Assembly: GCF_003925875.1 (NCBI RefSeq)
Contig: NZ_AP019309.1
Coordinates: 620,001 to 684,000, forward strand
DNA from: Intestinibaculum porci
GTDB taxonomy: Bacteria > Bacillota_I > Bacilli_A > Erysipelotrichales > Coprobacillaceae
DNA: 64,000 bases
Direction: 5' to 3'
The position numbers and the translations under genes were made by a program. Positions 3,758 to 35,362 of the stretch are shown here, one piece after another (position 1 is the stretch's first letter; each line of letters begins with the position of its first letter). The notes below the pieces were generated by a model that was given only the letters and a program-made list of their open reading frames with translations, was not told the DNA's origin and did not search any database.

Positions 3758-3790
3758 GGGAACTGAATTATGAATTCAGCTCCCTTTTTT
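3758..3790 (+). terminator. Rightward terminator inside the IS, upstream of the transposase
   Basis: Eleven base pairs in a 12-position stem (3758-3769 with 3773-3784, one mismatch), a three-base loop, then TTTTTT. It ends five bases before the transposase -10 box, so it would stop transcription entering from the left flank without blocking the transposase's own promoter. Confidence 0.85.
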
Positions 3791-3806
3791 GGTGTATAAT
3801 ATTTAT

Positions 3807-5414
3807 ATGATCAGTTATTCAAAAAATACACAAACTTATGGTATCACAAATCAGCTTTCTTTTCTATCTGATGTTTGTATTTCTTTCGATAACGACATTG
3901 ATGAATTTGATGTTTGCCGTACAGTTAAGAGCATAACAGAAAGGATGAATATTTACGATTATATTGAAGCTCCTGACAAAAATAGCAGAACTTCTAAATA
4001 TTCTGATCTACAGTTATTTAGAATTGTGTTACTTTCTAACTCAGACGGTGATTATAAATCCACCAGAAAAACTGCCGAATTGTGTAAGTATAATATCAGA
4101 TATATGTATGTATCATGTGGTGCTAAGCCTACGCATATGACTATATCCAGATTCATAAAACGGCTAAAGCCTTCCGTTCATAAATTGTTTATTGATATTT
4201 CAAAAACTATAGCAAAAAATTTGGACATATATTTCCCAATTTTGACTCTTGATGGAACTAAATTTGAAGCGAATGCTAATAAAAATACCCACATTTGGGC
4301 GAAAGCAACTAAACGCTATCGTCTTCAAGCGTGGAAAAAGGCATGCAAGCTGATAATACGTACAAATAAGTATTTTGAAAAGCATGGAATTGATGTTCGG
4401 TATTCTATTCTTAAACTACCTGATTTTCTCTATCTTTTAGCAATTTCAACAAAACTTCAGCAATTTATGCTTTCATTAGGTATTAAACCTGTTGACGGAC
4501 GAGGACACAAAAAGAGTGAGATCCAGAAATTATACGAGGAATACGATGAATTAGCCCTTAAACTTTTTAAATATACAATTATGTTTGATATGCTGGATGG
4601 TCGCAACAGCTGCTCTAAAACAGATGTTGATGCCTCGATGCTTCATATGAAATATGATTATTATTGTCATAATAATACTTTTAAGCCTGGATATAATGTC
4701 CAATTTGGTATTTCATATGGGTTTATTAGTGAAATTTTCATTAATTCTGACGCTAATGATCTAAGAACTTATATTCCTGTTATGGATCGCTTTAAAGAAG
4801 ATTATGGTCATTATCCTCAAATTGCAGTTGCAGATGCAGGATACTGCAGTTTTGATAACAATAAATTCAGTTTAATTCACAGTATTGACTTTTATACCAA
4901 ATATGTCGGTATGACTGAAGAAAACAAGCGTATAACTGAAAAAAATAAGTATAAAACGATACATATGAAGCAGGATGACGATTCATATAAATGTCCTGAA
5001 GGTTATAGTTTTGAAGAAGTCGGTGAACGTAAAGAAACACGAGGGGTATACGATCGAATTATAAAACAGCTTGAAAACAAGCATTGCGGTCAGTGCCCAA
5101 ATAAGTCTAAATGTACTAAAGCAAAAGGAAATAGAAAAATCTCTATCAGTCCTGAACTGGAATCTTATAAAGATAATATTAGAGCAAAACTTGATACCCC
5201 TGTCGGAAAAGAGTTAATGAATGCCAGAAGAATCTATAGTGAAGGCACATTTGGCATCCTCAAGCAAGATTATGGATATGATCGAGTTTACCGCAGAGGG
5301 CTATCAGGTGTTGAAGAAGAGATTACTTTAATGGCCATAGGATTTAATTTGCGAAAATATACAAAAGAATTAAAAGATAGAGCTATGAAAAAGAGGGAAA
5401 AACTGCTCAATTAA
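3807..5414 (+). CDS. IS1182-family DDE transposase
   Basis: 535 residues. Landmarks of the IS1182/DDE transposase group are an N-terminal HTH-like segment (PTHMTISRFIKRL), LTLDGTKFEANANK, FKPGYNVQFG, IAVADAGYCS (catalytic Asp region), a cysteine group HCGQCPNKSKCTKA, and the C-terminal Glu region EGTFGILKQDYGYDRVYRRG. I start at ATG 3807; an in-frame TTG at 3789 lies upstream of the -10 box TATAAT (3795-3800). With that box the transcript would begin at or next to the ATG, so translation may be leaderless; no ribosome site is visible. The gene appears intact. Confidence 0.9.
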   Translation: MISYSKNTQTYGITNQLSFLSDVCISFDNDIDEFDVCRTVKSITERMNIYDYIEAPDKNSRTSKYSDLQLFRIVLLSNSDGDYKSTRKTAELCKYNIRYMYVSCGAKPTHMTISRFIKRLKPSVHKLFIDISKTIAKNLDIYFPILTLDGTKFEANANKNTHIWAKATKRYRLQAWKKACKLIIRTNKYFEKHGIDVRYSILKLPDFLYLLAISTKLQQFMLSLGIKPVDGRGHKKSEIQKLYEEYDELALKLFKYTIMFDMLDGRNSCSKTDVDASMLHMKYDYYCHNNTFKPGYNVQFGISYGFISEIFINSDANDLRTYIPVMDRFKEDYGHYPQIAVADAGYCSFDNNKFSLIHSIDFYTKYVGMTEENKRITEKNKYKTIHMKQDDDSYKCPEGYSFEEVGERKETRGVYDRIIKQLENKHCGQCPNKSKCTKAKGNRKISISPELESYKDNIRAKLDTPVGKELMNARRIYSEGTFGILKQDYGYDRVYRRGLSGVEEEITLMAIGFNLRKYTKELKDRAMKKREKLLN

Positions 5415-8594: not shown

Positions 8595-9980
8595 ATGATT
8601 TCTAAACAAGATAAAGAACGAAATTTTGATTATGAAACGGAGGCTTGTGCTTTTAATACTACCCCCGAAGGGGTGAATTTGGCATTGGAAAAATCGATTA
8701 AGATGGTTACAGACAATATTGCATGTTATGTTATTGATCCTGTATCTGATATGACAAGAAGCCGTAAAGTTCCAGCTGATATGATTATTAGATTTCTCAT
8801 TCACAAGGAAGGAAAATCCATCAGATCTGAGATTTGTGAGCAGATGCCTGAAGGTATGGAGTTTCAAGCTTCAGCTTTCTGCATGCAGAGATATAAAATA
8901 AAGCCTAATGCATTTAACAGAGTAATGACGCTTTTCAATCAGACTATCAAACCTAAGAACACATTTAATGGCTACTATATCATTGCCTGCGATGGCTCCG
9001 ACTTGAACATTCCTTTTATGAAGGATCATCCTGAGTTAATCGTTAAAAGCAAAAAAGGAAGGGATTTTTGTCAGATCCACCTCAATGCTCTTTATGACTG
9101 CCTTAATGGAGTCTATTGGGACGCAGAAATGACAACACCTAACAAAAAAAGAGAACCTGGTGCTTTGATTACTATGACTGAAAGAAAGTATTACCCAGAA
9201 AAATCAATTATTGTATGTGATAGAGGATATGTTTCATACAAACTGATGGCTGATTTTATTGAGAAAGGACAAAAATTTGTGATTAGGTCTAAGGATATTA
9301 ATATCCGTAGTTCAATCCTAAAAAGATTTGATTTGCCAGATGAGGAATTAGACCAGGAAGTCAGCGTTACACTGACAAGAAGCAATAAACGTTATAATAG
9401 CGATCGAAAAAAATATGCATTGGTCAATTCAAATATCGATTTCCCACAAATTGATACATGGAGTAATGATGATTACGTAATAAGCTACAGAGTTGTCCGC
9501 ATAAAGCTTGATGATGAAAACTTTGTAACTCTTGTCACTAATTTAAGCAAGGAAGAAATACCGTTTGAGTATATGAAAGAGCTCTACCATTTAAGATGGT
9601 CTCAAGAACAATCATTTTTTAATTTGAAATATAGAATAGGTTTAAAATATTTCAATTCAAAGAAAGTTGATGGCATACTGCAAGAAGTATATTCGAAACT
9701 TATCATGTTTAACGTAACAAGTGTTATTACGAATAGTGTTGATATTCCTGATATGAAAGCTGAAGAGTATGAGAAAAACAAAAAAAGAGTTGCACACAAA
9801 ACGAAGGCAAACTTTGCCGTCGCAATCACCAATGTACATCTCTTTCTTAAGGGAACTATTTCTGAAAAAGGACTCATAAATAGAATCAAGAAATTTGTAA
9901 TCCCAATCAGACCTGGAAGATCATTCACTCGAAAAATAAGACCCCAGTCACTAGCTCCTCTGAACACTAGGGTATCATAA
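8595..9980 (+). CDS. IS4-family DDE transposase
   Basis: 461 residues. First Asp region IIACDGSDLNIPF (about 132), second Asp region SIIVCDRGYVSYKLM (about 205), and the IS4 signature Y-(2)-R-(3)-E-(6)-K in YHLRWSQEQSFFNLK (about 330). The ATG follows TAGGAGG by nine bases. TTGACA at 8532 is a probable -35 but no well-spaced -10 stands out. The reading frame is intact and the ends match well, so the element is probably recent and functional. Confidence 0.93.
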   Translation: MISKQDKERNFDYETEACAFNTTPEGVNLALEKSIKMVTDNIACYVIDPVSDMTRSRKVPADMIIRFLIHKEGKSIRSEICEQMPEGMEFQASAFCMQRYKIKPNAFNRVMTLFNQTIKPKNTFNGYYIIACDGSDLNIPFMKDHPELIVKSKKGRDFCQIHLNALYDCLNGVYWDAEMTTPNKKREPGALITMTERKYYPEKSIIVCDRGYVSYKLMADFIEKGQKFVIRSKDINIRSSILKRFDLPDEELDQEVSVTLTRSNKRYNSDRKKYALVNSNIDFPQIDTWSNDDYVISYRVVRIKLDDENFVTLVTNLSKEEIPFEYMKELYHLRWSQEQSFFNLKYRIGLKYFNSKKVDGILQEVYSKLIMFNVTSVITNSVDIPDMKAEEYEKNKKRVAHKTKANFAVAITNVHLFLKGTISEKGLINRIKKFVIPIRPGRSFTRKIRPQSLAPLNTRVS

Positions 9981-11237: not shown

Positions 11238-11265
11238 TTGTTTTTTATACTTTTTATGGTATTAT
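11238..11265 (+). promoter_or_regulatory. Promoter of the histidine operon
   Basis: TTGTTT (11238-11243), 16-bp spacer, TATTAT (11260-11265) with an extended TGG before the -10. Predicted start near 11272, giving a leader of about 190 bases before hisZ. Confidence 0.7.
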
Positions 11266-11286
11266 AGAAAAAACGAGGTGGTAGTT

Positions 11287-11358
11287 ATGAAAAAGACAAA
11301 TACAACTGCATTATTTTTAGGGTATTCATTACGCCACCATCATCATAGACACACTTAG
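11287..11358 (+). CDS. hisL: Histidine-operon leader peptide with five His codons
   Basis: A 23-codon ORF, MKKTNTTALFLGYSLRHHHH followed by RHT and TAG. It has a good ribosome site (GAGGTGG) six bases before its ATG. Codons 17-20 and 22 are His (CAC CAT CAT CAT, AGA, CAC), immediately before the stop. It sits between the operon promoter and an intrinsic terminator upstream of hisZ. This is the classic layout of ribosome-mediated attenuation: a shortage of charged tRNA-His stalls the ribosome on the run and changes folding of the RNA downstream. The name hisL follows the enterobacterial usage; no sequence homology to that peptide is claimed. Confidence 0.88.
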   Translation: MKKTNTTALFLGYSLRHHHHRHT

Positions 11359-11450
11359 GGTTATATCTTCATGATACAGCCCATTTTATGCATATTCGGG
11401 TGTATCTAATGATTTGTTTGAAGCGCGGGTCATTAGGACTCGCTTTTTTT
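11358..11450 (+). promoter_or_regulatory. Transcription attenuator of the histidine operon
   Basis: Mutually exclusive pairings are visible. Segment 1 (11358-11367) pairs with 2 (11373-11382). Segment 2 also pairs with 3 (11398-11406, GGGTGTATC). CTAATGA (11406-11412) pairs with TCATTAG (11430-11436). The terminator is GCGGGTC-ATTAG-GACTCGC (11425-11443) followed by seven T, ending 12 bases before hisZ. CTAATGA can also pair with TCATTA inside the leader ORF (11326-11331). The TCATTAG pairing would dissolve the terminator stem, as expected for an antiterminator. The exact switching order needs folding. Confidence 0.75.
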
Positions 11451-11462
11451 GTAGGAGGAGCT

Positions 11463-12428
11463 ATGGAAGAATTTAAATATCTGATTCCTGAAGAAAGCGG
11501 TGATGCCATTTCTTTAGATGCCAGAAAATTACGATTAATCGAAGGATCCTTACGGAAGATCTTCGATGCACATAACTATGAAGAACTGATGCTGCCGACA
11601 TTTGAATATGTCGATTTCTATGCCAGCATCCGTGATCAGGCGGAAGATTCAATGTTTCAGTTTGTCAACAGTGATGGCAAGCGCATTGCCTTGCGAACAG
11701 ACTTTACCTTGCCGATTGCCCGCATTTACAACAATGAACGAACCAATGAAGTCAAACGCTACAGTTACTTTGGGAAAGTCTATCGTTTAGCTAAACGTCA
11801 TAAAGGCCGTTCCAGTGAGCTTTATCAGATCGGCACCGAGTTAATCGGTTTAGGTGGTAAAGCCGGTGATCAGGAATGTTTATCGCTGATTGAAGAAACG
11901 ATGGCTTCCTTAGACTTAAAGGATTTGAAGATAGAATTAGGCTCTGCCAAATTCTATTTACGGTTAATGGAACTTGTGAAAGATGATCGCTTAAGCGGCA
12001 TCTTAGAAAAGAAACAGTTATCCGAAATGAAACGTTTCATTAAGGAAAAAGGCATTACCGGCTCACTAGGTCGCTTATTAGAAAATCTGCCAACCGCTTT
12101 TGGCTCTTATGAAGAACTGATGGCTTTTAAGGATTATGTCAAAGACTTTGAATTATTAGATGCGATTGATCGCATGGCTGCTTTATATGAAGGCTCAAAG
12201 CATAAAGAGGATATCATCTTTGATTTATGTATGGTCCCATCACAGCCTTACTATACGGGCGTGATGATTAAAGGCTATTCTTATTATAGCGCTTATCCAA
12301 TTTTATCAGGCGGCCGTTATGATAAGTTATTAAGCTATTTTGATAATGAGGTCCCAGCGATCGGTTTCTCATATCATATCAATACTTTACTCAATGCCTA
12401 TGTGAAGGAGGGCGAAGCGGATGATTAA
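11463..12428 (+). CDS. hisZ: ATP phosphoribosyltransferase regulatory subunit HisZ
   Basis: 321 residues, a histidyl-tRNA-synthetase paralogue that lacks the anticodon domain and activates short HisG for the first step of histidine synthesis. Motifs: [12 protein letters not shown], the class II motif-2 region [48 protein letters not shown], and C-terminal [15 protein letters not shown]. Start at ATG 11463 after GGAGGAG; a longer frame from 11388 would run through the attenuator hairpin and is rejected. Overlaps hisG by eight bases. Confidence 0.93.
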
Positions 12429-13053
12429 GATTGCCATTACCAAAGGCCGTATTGAAAAACAAGTGGTCAAAATGTTGAAGGAAAAAGGATTCGATATGGA
12501 TCCCATTATTAATAAAGATCGTGAATTACTCATTGAAACCAAAGATGGCATTTCGATGATCTTCGCGAAAGCCAATGATGTCTTAACGTTTTTAGAACAT
12601 GGCATTGTCGATGTCGGTTTTGTCGGCAAAGATACCTTAATGGAAGCGGACTTTGATGACTATTACGAATTATTAGATTTAGAGATTGGAAAATGTTACT
12701 TCGCGGTGGCAGCGTATCCTGAATACCGCACCAAAACCTTTAACCGTCGTAAACGTATCGCTTCGAAATATACCACTGTGGCGAAAGAATATTTCGCTTC
12801 TAAGCGGGAAGATGTGGAAATTATCAAACTGGAAGGTTCGGTAGAATTAGGACCCGTTGTAGGTTTGAGCGATGCGATTGTCGATATCGTCGAAACGGGC
12901 TCTACATTAAAAGCCAATGGCCTGGAAGTGATTGAAAAGGTAGCGGATATTTCTACCCGTATGGTAGTCAATAAAGTCTCTCTGAAATATAAGAAAGAGG
13001 AAATCTTTAAATTAGTCGATGCACTCAAAAAGGAGGATCAGGAAAAATGTTAA
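12421..13053 (+). CDS. hisG: ATP phosphoribosyltransferase, short form
   Basis: 210 residues: the short HisG type, which lacks the C-terminal regulatory domain and needs HisZ. It joins PRPP and ATP as the committed step of histidine synthesis. Signature segments: [13 protein letters not shown] at the start, [19 protein letters not shown], and the PRPP loop [31 protein letters not shown]. Translationally coupled on both sides (overlap with hisZ and hisD). Confidence 0.95.
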
Positions 13054-14345
13054 AAATTGTAGATTATACCGGTGACTTAACCGAACTGGAAAATAAATTA
13101 CATACCCGTAAACAGGAAGTGACCGATGAAGTCAATAAAGCAGTCAGCGCCATTGTCGATCGTATCAAAAAGGAAGGCGATCAGGCGGTCATTGATTACT
13201 GTCAGAAATTTGACGGTTATACCATTACGAAGCCAGAAGATTTCTTAGTTACAAAGCAGGAAGTGGACGAAGCCTGCGCGCGTGTCGGCGAGGACTTCTT
13301 ACGGATCTTAGAGCGTACCAAAGAGCAGTTAACCGTTTATCATAAAAATCAGGTTGAAAAGACCTGGACAATGGTGAAAGATGACGGTGTCATCTTAGGC
13401 TCATTAGTGCGTGGCATTGAAAATGTGGCACTGTATGTGCCAGGGGGAACCGCCGCTTATCCATCAACGGTCATGATGAATGCCATTCCCGCCCAGTTAG
13501 CTGGCGTTAAAAATATGTTCATTATTACCCCTGTGAAAGCTGATGGTAAGGTCTCTGATGTCATCTTAGCAGCCGCGAAAGTAGCGGGCATCACGACTAT
13601 TTATAAAGTTGGCGGCGCCCAGGGCGTAGCGGCGGCGGCTTATGGCACAAAGACGATTCAAAAAGCCGATAAGATTGTTGGGCCAGGGAATATTTTCGTC
13701 GCGACCGCGAAGAAGTTATGTTACGGGGTTGTGGATATCGATATGGTCGCCGGACCATCAGAAATCCTCATCGTCGCTGATGCTCATGCTAATCCTAAAT
13801 ATGTGGCGGCGGATTTAATGTCACAGGCGGAACATGATAAGTTAGCGAGTGCCACTTTGATTACGCCAAGTCGCGCTTTAGCGGAAAAAGTCGAAGAAGA
13901 ATTAAAACGTCAGATCGTCACTTTACCACGTCAGGAGATTATTCAGTCTTCCTTAGAAAACTATGGCGGCGCTGTCATTGTCAAAGATATTATGGAAGCC
14001 ATTGATGTTTCTAATGCCTTAGCGCCAGAACACTTAGAAGTGTTAGTAGAACAGCCGTTAGAAATGCTGCCATATATTAAAAATGCCGGTTCGATCTTCT
14101 TAGGAGAATACTCCCCAGAACCATTAGGTGATTATATGTCTGGAACGAACCATGTCTTACCAACTGGCGGGACTGCGAAATTCTATAGTGCTTTAGGCGT
14201 TTACGACTTCGTTAAGCATTCAGCTTACAGCTACTATCCAAAAGCAGCTTTAGCAGCCTTCAAAGATGATGTGCAGAAGTTTGCCCACTTAGAAGGTTTA
14301 GATGCGCACGCTAACAGTATCAAAGTTCGTTTTGAGGAGGATTAA
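13047..14345 (+). CDS. hisD: Histidinol dehydrogenase
   Basis: 432 residues, the usual length. It oxidises L-histidinol to histidine in two NAD-dependent steps and binds zinc. Motifs: [67 protein letters not shown] (zinc and catalytic residues), and APEHLE near the C-terminus. Begins inside the end of hisG and ends two bases before hisB. Confidence 0.96.
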
Positions 14346-14346
14346 T

Positions 14347-14934
14347 ATGCGTCAGGCTACGATTTCTCGTCATACTAAGGAGACAAAAATTACCTGTGAA
14401 TTAAACTTAGACGGCATAGGGAAAGCGGATGTTCAAACCGGCGTCGGCTTTCTCGACCATATGTTAACGCTGCTATCTTTTCATTCCCGCTTTGATCTAA
14501 AGGTGCACTGTGATGGCGATTTAGAAGTCGATTCTCATCACTCCGTTGAAGATATCGGGATTGCCTTAGGCGACTGCCTGACTCAGGCGTTAGGAGAAAA
14601 ACGCGGGATTGTCCGTTATGGCTCGTTCACGATTCCGATGGATGAAGCTTTAGTGACTGTTGACTTAGACTTATCCGGTCGTCCTTATCTGGTTTACCAT
14701 GCGACGCTCAATACGCCAGTGTTAGGCAACTATGAAACAGAGATGACGGAAGAGTTCTTTAGAGCGTTATCTGATCATGCCAAAATGACATTACATATTA
14801 ATGAACATTATGGCAAGAACACACATCATATTATTGAAGCGATGTTTAAAGCGACGGGCCGCGCGTTAAAGCAGGCCGTGGCGATCGATGAAAAATATAA
14901 AGATGAAATCTCATCAAGTAAGGGGGTCCTGTAA
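14347..14934 (+). CDS. hisB: Imidazoleglycerol-phosphate dehydratase
   Basis: 195 residues: the monofunctional dehydratase, without the HisB phosphatase domain of enteric bacteria, consistent with a separate HisK downstream. Both manganese-binding His-rich motifs are visible, GVGFLDHMLTLLSFHSRFDL with DSHHSVEDIGIALG, and LSDHAKMTLHINEHYGKNTHHIIEAMFK. I start at ATG 14347 behind GAGGAGG, not further upstream inside hisD. The stop overlaps the hisH start (TAATG). Confidence 0.95.
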   Translation: MRQATISRHTKETKITCELNLDGIGKADVQTGVGFLDHMLTLLSFHSRFDLKVHCDGDLEVDSHHSVEDIGIALGDCLTQALGEKRGIVRYGSFTIPMDEALVTVDLDLSGRPYLVYHATLNTPVLGNYETEMTEEFFRALSDHAKMTLHINEHYGKNTHHIIEAMFKATGRALKQAVAIDEKYKDEISSSKGVL

Positions 14935-15542
14935 TGATTGCAATTGTAGATTATAATGTCGGTAACTTAGCGAGTGTTACTAATGCTTTTAAAAGACAAG
15001 GCATGGATGTTAAAGTGACCAGAGATCCCCAGGATCTCTTAAGTGCTGATGGCATTATTTTACCAGGTGTCGGCGCTTTTCCAGTTGCGATGGACAATTT
15101 ACAGAAAGTGGGTCTTATTGAGCCCTTAACGAAAGCGAAAGAAAAAGGCACCCCAATGATGGGGATCTGTTTAGGCATGCAGATCCTCTTTGAACAGGGT
15201 TATGAAGTGACTCCGACGAAAGGTTTAGGCTTTTTAAAAGGGGAAGTCAAACTGATGGAAGTAGATGCCAAGCTCCCGCATATGGGCTGGAATCAGCTTG
15301 TCTTCAATCATGAACATCCCTTGTTGAAATATGTCGATGAAGGGGAATATGTCTACTTTGTCCACTCTTATGGGGCCGTTTGTCCAGATGATGAATTAAT
15401 GGCATATGCGCAGTATGGACATGCGAAAGTACCTGCTCTTGTCGCAAAAGATAATGTCATTGGCTGTCAGTTCCACCCCGAAAAAAGCGGGGAAGTGGGA
15501 ACCCGTATTTTAAAAGCCTTTAAGGAGATGATTGAACGATGA
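14934..15542 (+). CDS. hisH: Imidazole glycerol phosphate synthase, glutaminase subunit
   Basis: 202 residues, class I glutamine amidotransferase. It releases ammonia from glutamine and passes it to HisF. Catalytic Cys in GICLGMQILFEQG (about residue 80) and the His-Glu pair in GCQFHPEKSG (about 180); oxyanion segment LPGVGAFP. Starts and stops overlap neighbours by one to four bases. Confidence 0.95.
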   Translation: MIAIVDYNVGNLASVTNAFKRQGMDVKVTRDPQDLLSADGIILPGVGAFPVAMDNLQKVGLIEPLTKAKEKGTPMMGICLGMQILFEQGYEVTPTKGLGFLKGEVKLMEVDAKLPHMGWNQLVFNHEHPLLKYVDEGEYVYFVHSYGAVCPDDELMAYAQYGHAKVPALVAKDNVIGCQFHPEKSGEVGTRILKAFKEMIER

Positions 15543-16258
15543 TTGTCATTCCAGCGATTGATTTACAAGGTGGCGAAGCGGTCCGCCTCTATAAAGGAGA
15601 TTATGCCAAGAAAACGGTTTATTCCAAGCATCCTGAAGAGTTAGCCAAAGGTTTTGAAGACATGGGGGCTAAGTATCTCCACGTCGTTGATTTAGATGGG
15701 GCCAAAGACGCTCAGGCCACCAATGCGGAAACGATTCGCAAAATTCGTGAAAATATCTCCATTCCAATGGAACTTGGCGGCGGTATCCGCGATGATAAAA
15801 CGGTCAATTTCTACCTTAATGAAGTGGGTGTGAACCGGGTTATTTTAGGAACGGTGGCGCTCCATCATTCCGAATTTGTCAAAGCCTGCATCGATCGATA
15901 CGGCGCTGACCGCATTGTCGTAGGGGTTGATATTAAAGATGGTTATGTTTCCACTTCCGGCTGGTTAGAAGACAGTCAGGTGTATTATCTCGACTTTATT
16001 AAAGAATTAGAAAAGATAGGTGTGACAACGATTGTCTGCACCGATATTTCCAAAGATGGGACTTTAACTGGTCCATCTTATGAAGTGTATGAAAATATTC
16101 ATAAACATTCCGACATGAACTTCGTCGTATCCGGCGGCGTCAAAGATGCGCAGGATATCTATCAAGTCAATGACTTAGGTTATTACGGCTGCATTGTTGG
16201 AAAAGCTTATTATGAAGGAAAAGTGGATCTGAAAGAGGTGATTGCGCATGTTGGCTAA
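15539..16258 (+). CDS. hisA: Phosphoribosyl-formimino-AICAR-phosphate isomerase
   Basis: 239 residues, beta/alpha barrel that performs the Amadori rearrangement of ProFAR. Catalytic Asp in [20 protein letters not shown], the phosphate loops [10 protein letters not shown] and [12 protein letters not shown], and second catalytic Asp in [16 protein letters not shown]. Overlaps hisH by four bases and hisF by eleven. Confidence 0.95.
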
Positions 16259-17018
16259 AAGAATTATTCCTTGTTTAGATATCAAAGATGGGAAAGTCGT
16301 GAAAGGGGTCAACTTTGTTGGGCTCAAAGATGTCGGAGATCCTGTTGAACTCGCCAAAGAATACGATCGTCAGTCCGCTGATGAAGTCGTCTTCCTCGAT
16401 ATTACGGCGACGTATGAACATCGTGATATTATTAAAGATCTGATTGCGCGCGCTGCTTCGGAATTATCGATTCCGCTTTGCGTGGGTGGCGGCATCCGCA
16501 CCTTAGATGATTTTCGCACCATCTTAGCGGCGGGGGCTGATAAAGTATCCGTCAATAGCGCCGCTATTAAAAATCCTGATCTCATCAAACAGGCGGCTGA
16601 TGAATTTGGCGTCCAGTGCGTGGTCTTAGCTGTTGATGCGAAAGCACGTGAAGATCATTCCGGTTATGATGTCTATATTGCCGGCGGCCGGGAAAATACG
16701 GGTATTGACCTGATTGAATGGGTTAAGAAAGCCGAAGCTTTAGGAGCTGGAGAAATTCTCTTGACGAGCATGGATGCGGATGGGACCCGCGATGGTTTTG
16801 ATATCGATATGCTCAATGCCGTGATGGATGTTGTCGATGTGCCGGTGATTGCCAGCGGCGGCTGCGGCGGTAAAGAAGATATGGCGGAAGTCTTTGAAAA
16901 GACCAACTGTGACGCTGCTTTAGCGGCTTCGCTCTTCCATTTTGGTGAAGCGACGGTTGATGAAGTCAAAGATGTCTGCGCAGCGCGGGGCATCCCAGTA
17001 AGGAGAAATCGAAAATGA
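16248..17018 (+). CDS. hisF: Imidazole glycerol phosphate synthase, cyclase subunit
   Basis: 256 residues. Motifs: [73 protein letters not shown] and [14 protein letters not shown]. It closes the imidazole ring and releases AICAR. I start at ATG 16248, seven bases after GAGGTG; an in-frame TTG at 16242 is less likely. Confidence 0.95.
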
Positions 17019-17575
17019 TCAAACCAGATTTTGCGAAAGGCAACGGTCTTATCCCAGCCATTGTCCAGGATGTTGAAAGCAAGCAGGTCTTAATGTTAGC
17101 GTATGTCAACGAAGAAGCTTATCAAAAAATGTTAGAAACCAAGCAGACGTGTTTCTATAGCCGTTCCCGTCAGCAGTTATGGCATAAAGGGGAAACGTCC
17201 GGCCATTTCCAGCATATTGTCGGGATGTATTTAGACTGTGATAATGATACTTTCTTAATTATTGTCAGACAGGATGGTGCCGCCTGCCATACCGGCAGTT
17301 ATTCCTGCTTCTTTAAAACCATTATGCCTTATGATCTCGCTGATCTTAATGATCGTCTCTATGATGTCTTAGAAGATCAGGAAATCCATTTATCTAAAGT
17401 GGAAGAGGACTTAAAAAAGAAAGCGGATGCGCATGATGAAGCAGCCTTAGAAGATCTTTATTTTGACTTAATCGCCAAATTAAAGGCTGAAGGTGTGGAC
17501 TTACGAGACTTTGAAGCGAAGATGAAAGCAAAATATCCACTAAAAGGACAGGTCAAAAAGATCTTTTACGAGTGA
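17015..17575 (+). CDS. hisI: Phosphoribosyl-AMP cyclohydrolase with degenerate HisE-like tail
   Basis: 186 residues. Residues 1-108 are a good His[48 protein letters not shown] with the zinc cysteines. The remaining ~78 residues occupy the place of the phosphoribosyl-ATP pyrophosphatase (HisE) domain and align loosely ([20 protein letters not shown] and [19 protein letters not shown]). The region between is too short and the usual acidic GEEATE and E-x-A-D-L-L-Y-H metal-binding motifs are not conserved. The tail may be inactive, so the pyrophosphatase step may be done elsewhere. Confidence 0.85.
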
Positions 17576-17580
17576 ATATA

Positions 17581-17838
17581 ATGGATATTTATATTGATAT
17601 GCAGTACGTATCCTCGCGTGAGGACCTATTGCAGGCATTATCAGGGATGCTTTGTATGAATCTGACAAGTGAAGAAGAGGTTAAAGAAGCGCTGACATCT
17701 TTAAAACATGTCACGTTGATCTTTCTCAATCTTAAACAGCATCCTTTAAGTGATGAAATGCGGCATCTTTTGAAGAAGTGTCATCGTAAGAATCATCATC
17801 TCTCTCTTCTTTTTGAAGAGACTATAAGACATTATTAG
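17581..17838 (+). CDS. Small barstar-like protein in the histidine operon
   Basis: 85 residues from ATG 17581 (an in-frame GTG at 17572 overlaps the hisI stop). No family is certain. The layout resembles barstar: a first strand IYIDMQYV, helix SSREDLLQALSGML, then N-L-T-S-E-E-E-V-K-E-A-L in the place of the barstar NLDALWDCL helix, strand VTLIFLNL, helix LSDEMRHLLKKCH, and a last strand HLSLLFEE. Barstar is a ribonuclease inhibitor; no barnase-like gene is nearby. Weak ribosome site, so probably translated by coupling. A role in histidine synthesis is unproven. Confidence 0.6.
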   Translation: MDIYIDMQYVSSREDLLQALSGMLCMNLTSEEEVKEALTSLKHVTLIFLNLKQHPLSDEMRHLLKKCHRKNHHLSLLFEETIRHY

Positions 17839-17847
17839 GAGGTCATT

Positions 17848-18636
17848 ATGCGCGCTATTGATTATCATATGCATACTAAATTTTCCGGGGACAGCGAAGC
17901 GGATCCCCGGGCTCATATTGAACAGGCGATTGCTTTAGGCTTAGATGAAATCTGCTTTACCGATCATCGGGATTTTGATTATCCGATTGATACATTTGCG
18001 CTCGATACGCCAGCTTACTTTCAGGAATTAACGGCTTTACAAAAAGAATACGCTGATCGCATCAAGATCAAAATTGGCGTTGAAATCGGTTTGGATCTTG
18101 ATCATAAAGAAGAGATTGAAGCTTTTATTAACGCTTCTCCTTATGATTTTGTCATTGGTTCGATTCATGTTATTCATCATACGGAGTTCTACTATGGCGA
18201 TTTCTTTCATGGGAAAAGTAAAGATCAGGCGCATGAAGCTTTCTTTAAAGAAACTTTGAAATGCGTTCAGGCCTTTGACTGTTTCAATGTTTTAGGTCAT
18301 ATGGACTACATTATGCGTTATGGCCCTTACGTTGATAAACGGGTTGATCATGGCAAATGGCAATCTCTTATTGATGAGATTCTCAAAACCTTAATTAAAA
18401 AAGGGAAAGGTATCGAAGTCAATACCAGCGGCTATAAAGTCAATGGCTGCTGTGGTTTTCCAAACTTTGATGTCATTAAACGTTATCTCCAATTAGGCGG
18501 GACTATTTTAACGATTGGCACCGATGCTCATACCAGTGATCGCGTGGGAGAACATGTTTATGATGTTATGGGGCATTATGCTCATTTAGGCGTCAGTGAT
18601 GTTTCAACTTTCACAAAAAGGGTGAAAGATAGCTGA
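17848..18636 (+). CDS. hisK: Histidinol-phosphatase, PHP family
   Basis: 262 residues. PHP-domain metal motifs are clear: DYHMHTKFSGD at the N-terminus, CFTDHRDFDY, GVEIGLDLDHKEE, IGSIHVIHH, LGHMDYIMRYG and the terminal IGTDAHTSDRVGEH. It removes phosphate from histidinol phosphate and replaces the N-terminal phosphatase domain missing from HisB. AGGAGG ribosome site 6 bases before the ATG. It is the last operon gene; the aminotransferase gene hisC is not in this cluster. Confidence 0.9.
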   Translation: MRAIDYHMHTKFSGDSEADPRAHIEQAIALGLDEICFTDHRDFDYPIDTFALDTPAYFQELTALQKEYADRIKIKIGVEIGLDLDHKEEIEAFINASPYDFVIGSIHVIHHTEFYYGDFFHGKSKDQAHEAFFKETLKCVQAFDCFNVLGHMDYIMRYGPYVDKRVDHGKWQSLIDEILKTLIKKGKGIEVNTSGYKVNGCCGFPNFDVIKRYLQLGGTILTIGTDAHTSDRVGEHVYDVMGHYAHLGVSDVSTFTKRVKDS

Positions 18637-34036: not shown

Positions 34037-34057
34037 GGAGAATTCTCCTATTATAAT
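34037..34057 (+). promoter_or_regulatory. Promoter with palindrome before the ZTP riboswitch
   Basis: TATAAT (34052-34057) preceded by the perfect 12-base palindrome GGAGAATTCTCC (34037-34048) lying in the spacer. No clear -35 box, which suggests activator use or a repressor site in the spacer. Confidence 0.5.
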
Positions 34058-34067
34058 AGTAGTTATA

Positions 34068-34160
34068 CGACTGACGGAAGTGGAATAGACCACATGAAGT
34101 ATAATTGTATGAAGCCGACCGTCTGGGCAAAAGAAGGCCTGGAATCATTGGCTTCTTTTT
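34068..34160 (+). promoter_or_regulatory. ZTP (pfl) riboswitch with terminator
   Basis: The aptamer is recognisable from its conserved blocks: CGACTGACGGAA, GTGGA-ATAG-ACCAC, GAAG and the 3' element GCCGACCGTCTGGGC (34114-34128). It is followed at once by a terminator: AGAAG-G-CC paired with GGCTTCT (34132-34156, one bulged G) and a T run. ZTP/ZMP accumulates when 10-formyl-tetrahydrofolate is short and turns on purine and one-carbon genes; the downstream gene uses 10-formyl-THF on ZMP (AICAR), a fitting target. Termination in the absence of ligand is the usual logic. Confidence 0.88.
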
Positions 34161-34180: not shown

Positions 34181-35362
34181 ATGAACGAATTAGAATTAAA
34201 GTATGGCTGTAACCCTAACCAGAAACCTGCGCGCGTGTATATGGAAAACGGACAGGAATTACCAATCACCGTCGTGAATGGTCGTCCTGGTTATATCAAC
34301 TTACTTGATGCCCTCAATAGCTGGCAGTTAGTCAAAGAGCTCAAAGAAGCGATTGGCGTGCCTTGTGCGGCAAGCTTTAAACATGTGTCTCCTGCTGGTG
34401 TTGCCATTGGCACGCCACTTACCGATGTTGAACGTCAGATGTATTTTGTGAAAAAATCACCCGAAGAATTAACCCCTTTAGCGAATGCTTATATCAAGGC
34501 CCGCGGCAGTGACCGTATGAGTTCTTATGGTGATTTCTGTGCGATGAGTGAAGTTGTCGATGCGGTAACCGCTGATTTAATCCGTATCGAAGTCTCTGAT
34601 GGGATCATCGCACCAGGTTATACCGATGAAGCGATTGCCATCTTAAAGAAGAAGAAAAAAGGCAATTACTGCGTTTTACAGATTGATCCAGATTATGTTC
34701 CTGATCCGATCGAAAAGAAACAGGTATACGGCATTACCTTTGAACAGGGCCGCAATAATGCAAAAATTACCGCTGATTTATTTAAGGATATCGTTTCCGT
34801 TAATAAAGAGATCCCAGATCATATTATGAATGACTTAATCCTTTCGATGATCACTTTAAAATATACTCAGTCTAACTCTGTATGTTACGTGAAAAATGGG
34901 CAGGCGATCGGCATTGGTGCAGGTCAGCAGTCACGTATCCACTGTACCCGCCTCGCTGGTGATAAAGCTGATAAATGGTACTTACGTCAGGCACCGCAGG
35001 TTTTAAATCTTAAATTCCGCAAAGGATTGCACCGCGCTGATCGTGATAATGCGATTGATGTTTACTTATCGAAAGACTGGGCCGATGTCAACGGTGATGA
35101 TAACTGGATGAATACCTTTGAAGAACGTCCAGAAGTCTTCACTGAAGAAGCGCAGCGCGCATGGTTAAACGGTAATACCGATGTTGTCTTAGGCTCTGAT
35201 GCTTTCTTCCCATTTGGTGATAATGTCGAAAGAGCGCATCGTTCAGGGGTGAAATATATTGGCGAAGCCGGCGGTTCGATCCGTGATGACAATGTCATTG
35301 AAACGGCTGATAAATATAATATGGTCTTAGCGTTTACGAATTTAAGATTATTCCATCACTAA
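34181..35362 (+). CDS. Stand-alone AICAR (ZMP) transformylase
   Basis: 393 residues: the transformylase half of PurH without the IMP cyclohydrolase domain. Segments: LKYGCNPNQKPA at the start, AASFKHVSPAGVAIG (catalytic Lys-His), SSYGDFCAMSE, EVSDGIIAPGYTDEA, YTQSNSVCYVKNGQAIGIGAGQQSR, and DAFFPFGDNVERAHRSGV. It formylates AICAR with 10-formyl-THF in purine synthesis and would also recycle the AICAR made by HisF/HisH. Under a ZTP riboswitch; AGGAGG ribosome site. Confidence 0.92.
   Translation: MNELELKYGCNPNQKPARVYMENGQELPITVVNGRPGYINLLDALNSWQLVKELKEAIGVPCAASFKHVSPAGVAIGTPLTDVERQMYFVKKSPEELTPLANAYIKARGSDRMSSYGDFCAMSEVVDAVTADLIRIEVSDGIIAPGYTDEAIAILKKKKKGNYCVLQIDPDYVPDPIEKKQVYGITFEQGRNNAKITADLFKDIVSVNKEIPDHIMNDLILSMITLKYTQSNSVCYVKNGQAIGIGAGQQSRIHCTRLAGDKADKWYLRQAPQVLNLKFRKGLHRADRDNAIDVYLSKDWADVNGDDNWMNTFEERPEVFTEEAQRAWLNGNTDVVLGSDAFFPFGDNVERAHRSGVKYIGEAGGSIRDDNVIETADKYNMVLAFTNLRLFHH

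Follow-up and report, generated by a model that had tools for sequence, protein, structure and literature searches.

A predicted histidine leader-peptide attenuator upstream of hisZ, conserved across a family of Erysipelotrichales

Firmicutes his operons without HisR and T-boxes were searched by Ashniev et al. (2022; PMC9413887), and candidate His-leader attenuators were reported in six species of the B. cereus group, five Eubacteriales and six Erysipelotrichales, the last from the genera Eggerthia, Erysipelatoclostridium, Catenibacterium, Coprobacillus and [Clostridium]. According to the same work, other Erysipelotrichales his operons carry T-boxes and no match to the enterobacterial element RF00514 occurs in Firmicutes (PMC9413887). 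In the reported attenuators a run of three to five consecutive His codons immediately precedes the attenuator, antiterminator and terminator hairpins. The leader treated here, from the window (the whole 64-kb stretch of DNA that was analysed, part of a 3.2-Mb single-contig genome), is alike in this arrangement, and it shares with the Erysipelotrichales candidates the order, the operon and the absence of a HisR or T-box for that operon. Compared by description, it is probably the same, homologous element. The closest named relatives of the window, on which its assignment to the order is based, are Sharpea species (HisZ 64-66% identical), a genus missing from those listed in PMC9413887.

Two other systems are relevant to the comparison. 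The enterobacterial HisL leader (RF00514) and the leader of the window both combine a run of His codons with alternating hairpins and a terminator before the first his gene, and in both a stall is expected to favour the antiterminator. HisL has seven His codons, whereas the window leader has four or five and a different sequence; the likeness is one of mode of action and no homology is claimed. The His T-box (RF00230) of other Erysipelotrichales shares with the window leader its signal, the charging of tRNA-His, and its target operon. Unlike the window leader it reads uncharged tRNA directly, and it is absent before hisZ of the window.

The window leader is thus a well-supported further example of the candidate Firmicutes His-leader attenuators, and the mechanism is not new, because it fits the description given by Ashniev et al. 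(2022) in the same order. A preliminary description of this DNA had presented the leader as an independent Firmicutes case; this is not supported, since candidates had already been reported (PMC9413887). The additions made here are the occurrence throughout the family (in all 39 readable operons), the covariation, the split between T-boxes and attenuator, the folding by ribosome position and three small regularities of the leader.

The features of the leader ORF and of the operon that follows it are:

11257-11265, + strand: predicted extended -10 element TGG TATTAT, inferred by reading the sequence, with a transcription start at about 11271
11275-11281, + strand: leader ribosome-binding site GAGGTGG (GAGG at 11275-11278, eight nucleotides 5' of the ATG)
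11287-11358, + strand: leader peptide ORF of 23 codons, MKKTNTTALFLGYSLRHHHHRHT, with ATG at 11287 and stop TAG at 11356-11358
11335-11352, + strand: regulatory codons CAC CAT CAT CAT AGA CAC (four His, Arg, His), recognized from the sequence and the relatives
11463-12428, + strand: hisZ, the first gene of the operon, short (321 aa); best NCBIfam family TIGR00443, E 8e-68, below the curated cut-off
12421-18636, + strand: hisG, hisD, hisB, hisH, hisA, hisF, hisI(E), an 88-aa ORF and a hisJ-family phosphatase

The his genes are therefore preceded by a small reading frame that has its own ribosome site and a series of His codons. The four-His run occupies 11335-11346 (CAC CAT CAT CAT) and is followed by AGA and by the fifth His codon, CAC, at 11350-11352; a second Arg codon (CGC) stands 5' of the run. 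The 23-codon ORF with its ribosome site, lying before a terminator (11425-11450) and hisZ, had been noted in the preliminary description and is borne out. The order of four His, Arg and a fifth His was also read correctly, but the fifth His codon is not directly before the stop, as a Thr codon (ACT) intervenes. Among short ORFs of 8-45 codons on both strands of the 64-kb window, the leader ORF alone has four consecutive His codons. Second-order Markov windows yield 0.2 such ORFs each, counted anywhere and with no downstream his operon required; in the whole genome, four-His-codon patterns occur at 65 sites (both strands, any frame). The consensus scan gave no match for the extended -10 element at 11257-11265.

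The operon stretch 12421-18636 has no hisC. The 88-aa ORF (17572-17838), to which no function was assigned, lies between hisI(E) and hisJ, and two transposase-like ORFs (3789-5414 and 8595-9980) are near the operon. Elsewhere in the window, a ZMP/ZTP riboswitch (RF01750) is located at 34057-34135, just 5' of a 393-aa ORF (34181-35362) which by eye resembles the AICAR formyltransferase of the purine pathway. Histidine synthesis yields AICAR as a by-product.

Downstream of the His codons the RNA can be divided into the following segments:

11358-11367, + strand: segment 1, GGGTTATATC, from the alignment, overlapping the leader stop codon
11373-11382, + strand: segment 2, GATACAGCCC, predicted partner of segment 1 (stall state) or of segment 3 (stop-codon state)
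11398-11406, + strand: segment 3a, GGGTGTATC, pairing with segment 2 (segment 3 as a whole is 11398-11417)
11406-11417, + strand: segment 3b, CTAATGATTTGT, 5' arm of the antiterminator
11425-11436, + strand: segment 4, GCGGGTCATTAG, 3' arm of the antiterminator, its first seven nucleotides forming the 5' arm of the terminator
11437-11450, + strand: segment 5, GACTCGC and T7, supplying the 3' arm and the U tract to the intrinsic terminator

The intrinsic terminator, GCGGGTC-ATTAG-GACTCGC followed by T7, is placed at 11425-11450, 66 nucleotides past the leader ORF and before hisZ, and a terminator in this position is conserved in the family. Terminator-like sites number 2 in 371 bases, against 0.2 expected in shuffles. 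The pairing CTAATGA:TCATTAG is present and grows to 12 pairs (11406-11417 with 11425-11436). Pairings 3:4 and 4:5 use some of the same bases, and each is conserved, so that terminator and antiterminator are alternatives.

On this evidence, from sequence and folding models, the leader of the his operon can be read as a ribosome-mediated transcription attenuator with a probability of about 0.9, a switch that very probably passes transcription only when histidine is short. RNA polymerase would start just 5' of the leader ORF with a ribosome trailing behind. When charged tRNA-His is scarce, the ribosome should stall at the first His codons, leaving segment 1 free to pair with segment 2; segment 3 would then be available for segment 4, and with this antiterminator formed the operon would be transcribed. 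When histidine is ample, the ribosome would reach the stop codon and cover segment 1, pairing 2:3 would form, and the 4:5 terminator would follow.

Such a leader might instead act on translation, through coupling of the His ORF to hisZ or through a structure hiding the hisZ ribosome site, and translational attenuators do exist (PMC9413887). However, the hairpin conserved at the 3' end is a terminator of canonical type, with a T run that stops short of the ribosome site of hisZ (AGGAGGA, 11453-11459), which makes a translational mode very unlikely.

Conservation of the leader was examined in the family, where hisZ was found in 40 of 43 genomes; one contig begins inside hisZ, leaving 39 readable operons from 17 genera. 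The element is present 5' of hisZ in all 39, down to a HisZ identity of 45%. The preliminary description had made the attenuator depend on conservation of the His run in relatives, and a His-rich leader with its stop is indeed kept in 38 of the 39, at the same place before hisZ. Each of these 38 has at least four His codons, or else three to four mixed with a CGC Arg codon, and its stop overlaps or adjoins segment 1. Upstream of the leader ATG the relatives have GAGGTG or a sequence close to it. A decayed leader is seen in L021:2482-2641 (G008), where the run is CAT CGT CAT and the stop TAG has become GAG; its RNA pairings are largely kept. In L013:2482-2657 pairings 1:2, 3:4 and 4:5 are kept and 2:3 is lost.

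A covariance model of the leader tail gave strong matches (E<=1.1e-7) confined to this family and placed before his. In the order-wide search these were found in 39 of the 43 family genomes, and in a class sample of 395 genomes they occurred in 16, all of them family members. Weak matches at other loci or in other families (E 1.8e-4 to 0.07) were taken as chance terminators; twelve of them were fetched and had no His run like that of a his leader. The search with the 23-aa leader peptide alone returned only chance matches besides the window itself.

The codons around the His run show further regularities. Gln-Phe/Leu precedes the run in most relatives. A Trp codon stands right after it in 32 of the 39 leaders (e.g., L016:1309-1484), nearly always three codons before the stop, and the codons after the Trp vary. 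At the second position of the run, 33 of the 39 leaders use CAC (or CGC, Arg), and CAT is found almost without exception at the other positions; this preference is not explained by pairing with the ribosome site. Arrest of the ribosome by the nascent peptide sequence, as opposed to slow reading of the His codons, could be supposed from the residues conserved near the run (Q-F/L before, W after), but the clade of the window lacks both the W and the QF and the His run is the sole feature common to nearly all leaders, so that this explanation is most improbable.

The conserved Trp codon also raises the idea that in most members the attenuator senses tryptophan besides histidine. With a ribosome stalled at the Trp codon, most of segment 1 would remain accessible, and tryptophan shortage would then switch on his as well; the histidine and tryptophan pathways both use PRPP. 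The Trp codon does not track the presence of trpB, as W-bearing leaders come from genomes with and without it, and the comparison therefore lends no support to a second sensing function, which is judged unlikely.

The competing pairings pointed out in the preliminary description (1:2, 2:3 and CTAATGA:TCATTAG against the terminator) are seen and conserved. In alignment A1 the segments have the forms GGGTTATATC (segment 1), GATACAGCCC (segment 2), GGGTGTATC-TAATGAC (segment 3), GTCATTAG within ACGAGTCATTAG (segment 4) and GACTCGT (segment 5). All four pairings, 1:2, 2:3, 3:4 and 4:5, are conserved, and compensatory changes are found in the last three. In detail, paired cells in the 39-leader alignment amount to 90% for 1:2, 97% for 3:4 and 96% for 4:5; the combination of 1:2 and 3:4 is jointly paired in 93.0% of cells and that of 2:3 and 4:5 in 87.5%. 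When the partners were slid by 1-3 columns as a control, pairing of the two structures dropped to 24-44%.

Compensatory changes affect two pairs of 3:4, two of 2:3 and four of 4:5. For instance, a G-C pair of 3:4 becomes A-U in three genomes (L011, L012 and L014), with the matching change of C-G to U-A in 4:5, and a C-G pair of 2:3 becomes U-A in two of these (L011 and L012). Cells changed on both sides number 4 for 1:2 with 3:4 and 19 for 2:3 with 4:5, and none of 500 shuffles reached these values, the shuffled means being 0.4 and 6.0; the counts are not independent events, because related sequences are counted. Helix 1:2 hardly varies and therefore shows conservation with little covariation. 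Columns 30 and 62, which face each other in 2:3, are mismatched in 29 of 39 leaders in the register of the alignment; a one-base bulge restores pairing as CCC:GGG. Although the terminator leaves its loop ATTAG unpaired, the loop is conserved, as would be expected if it belongs to an antiterminator arm.

The RNA of the window was folded with the ribosome at defined positions, its edge set 13 nucleotides from the start of the codon in the A-site. When that codon is His 1, 2, 3 or 4, the minimum-energy fold holds 1:2 and the 12-pair antiterminator (-26.8 kcal/mol); on the fifth His codon it holds 2:3 and the terminator (-22.8 kcal/mol), as it does on the stop (-22.6 kcal/mol). Forced-structure energies of the 39 leaders agree in direction, 1:2 favouring 3:4 and 2:3 favouring 4:5 in 32 of them, with a median coupling of -3.4 kcal/mol. 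The switch anticipated in the preliminary description thus appears between ribosome-position states, but the ribosome-free RNA is ambiguous: 11272-11462 folds into the antiterminator, and the RNA ending at the U tract adopts the terminator through the involvement of leader sequence further upstream.

For most relatives, equilibrium stability favours the terminator over the antiterminator whichever state the ribosome is in, and the switch must therefore be kinetic there. Kinetic action of the antiterminator is common among attenuators. The overlap of 2:3 with 3:4 is just one or two bases, so their mutual exclusion is not obvious; this is the weakest and least explained step. Two further structures were considered and rejected. 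An extension of 2:3, in which the loop of 1:2 would pair with segment 3b, is clear in the window but does no better in the family than shuffled loops. A hairpin of the leader ribosome site with the His codons is visible, but no better than that formed with randomly chosen synonymous His codons.

Taken together, the conservation of the His run, of its position and of the four pairings, along with the folding by ribosome position, supports the His leader-peptide attenuator that the preliminary description had proposed. Control of the operon by a His-specific T-box or a HisR repressor, with the short ORF incidental, would be the ordinary arrangement: T-box or protein control had been named as usual in Firmicutes, which agrees with PMC9413887, and outside this family all 40 of the his operons tested in the order have a T-box 5' of them. 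The genome of the window itself has 21 T-box matches, one of them just 5' of a hisS-like gene. On the contrary, no match to the T-box (RF00230) or RF00514 was obtained in the window at the gathering threshold, nor at E<=1 in 20 upstream regions of the family, and no TrpR/HisR-type protein (Trp_repressor family) passed the cut-off in the genome. The conserved His run is also unlike what is expected of an incidental ORF, and this form of control can be given hardly any weight. A short ORF with a His run was found in none of the 49 hisZ upstream regions examined from the rest of the order.

The T-box at G000:C1:2060255-2060441 lies in the same genome directly 5' of the histidyl-tRNA synthetase-like gene (L004:724-2010, minus strand), which we take from its sequence to be hisS. 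With a T-box before this gene and an attenuator before his, two sensors therefore probably read the charging of tRNA-His in one cell.

With these results, a prediction for six species becomes a family-wide element supported by covariation. A clean boundary is drawn within one order, between a family with a his peptide attenuator and the tested remainder with T-boxes, though the same genome keeps T-boxes elsewhere. This is a natural case for studying why bacteria swap one sensor of tRNA charging for another, and the lineage is suited to asking if the coupling of translation to transcription is tight enough for attenuation to work.
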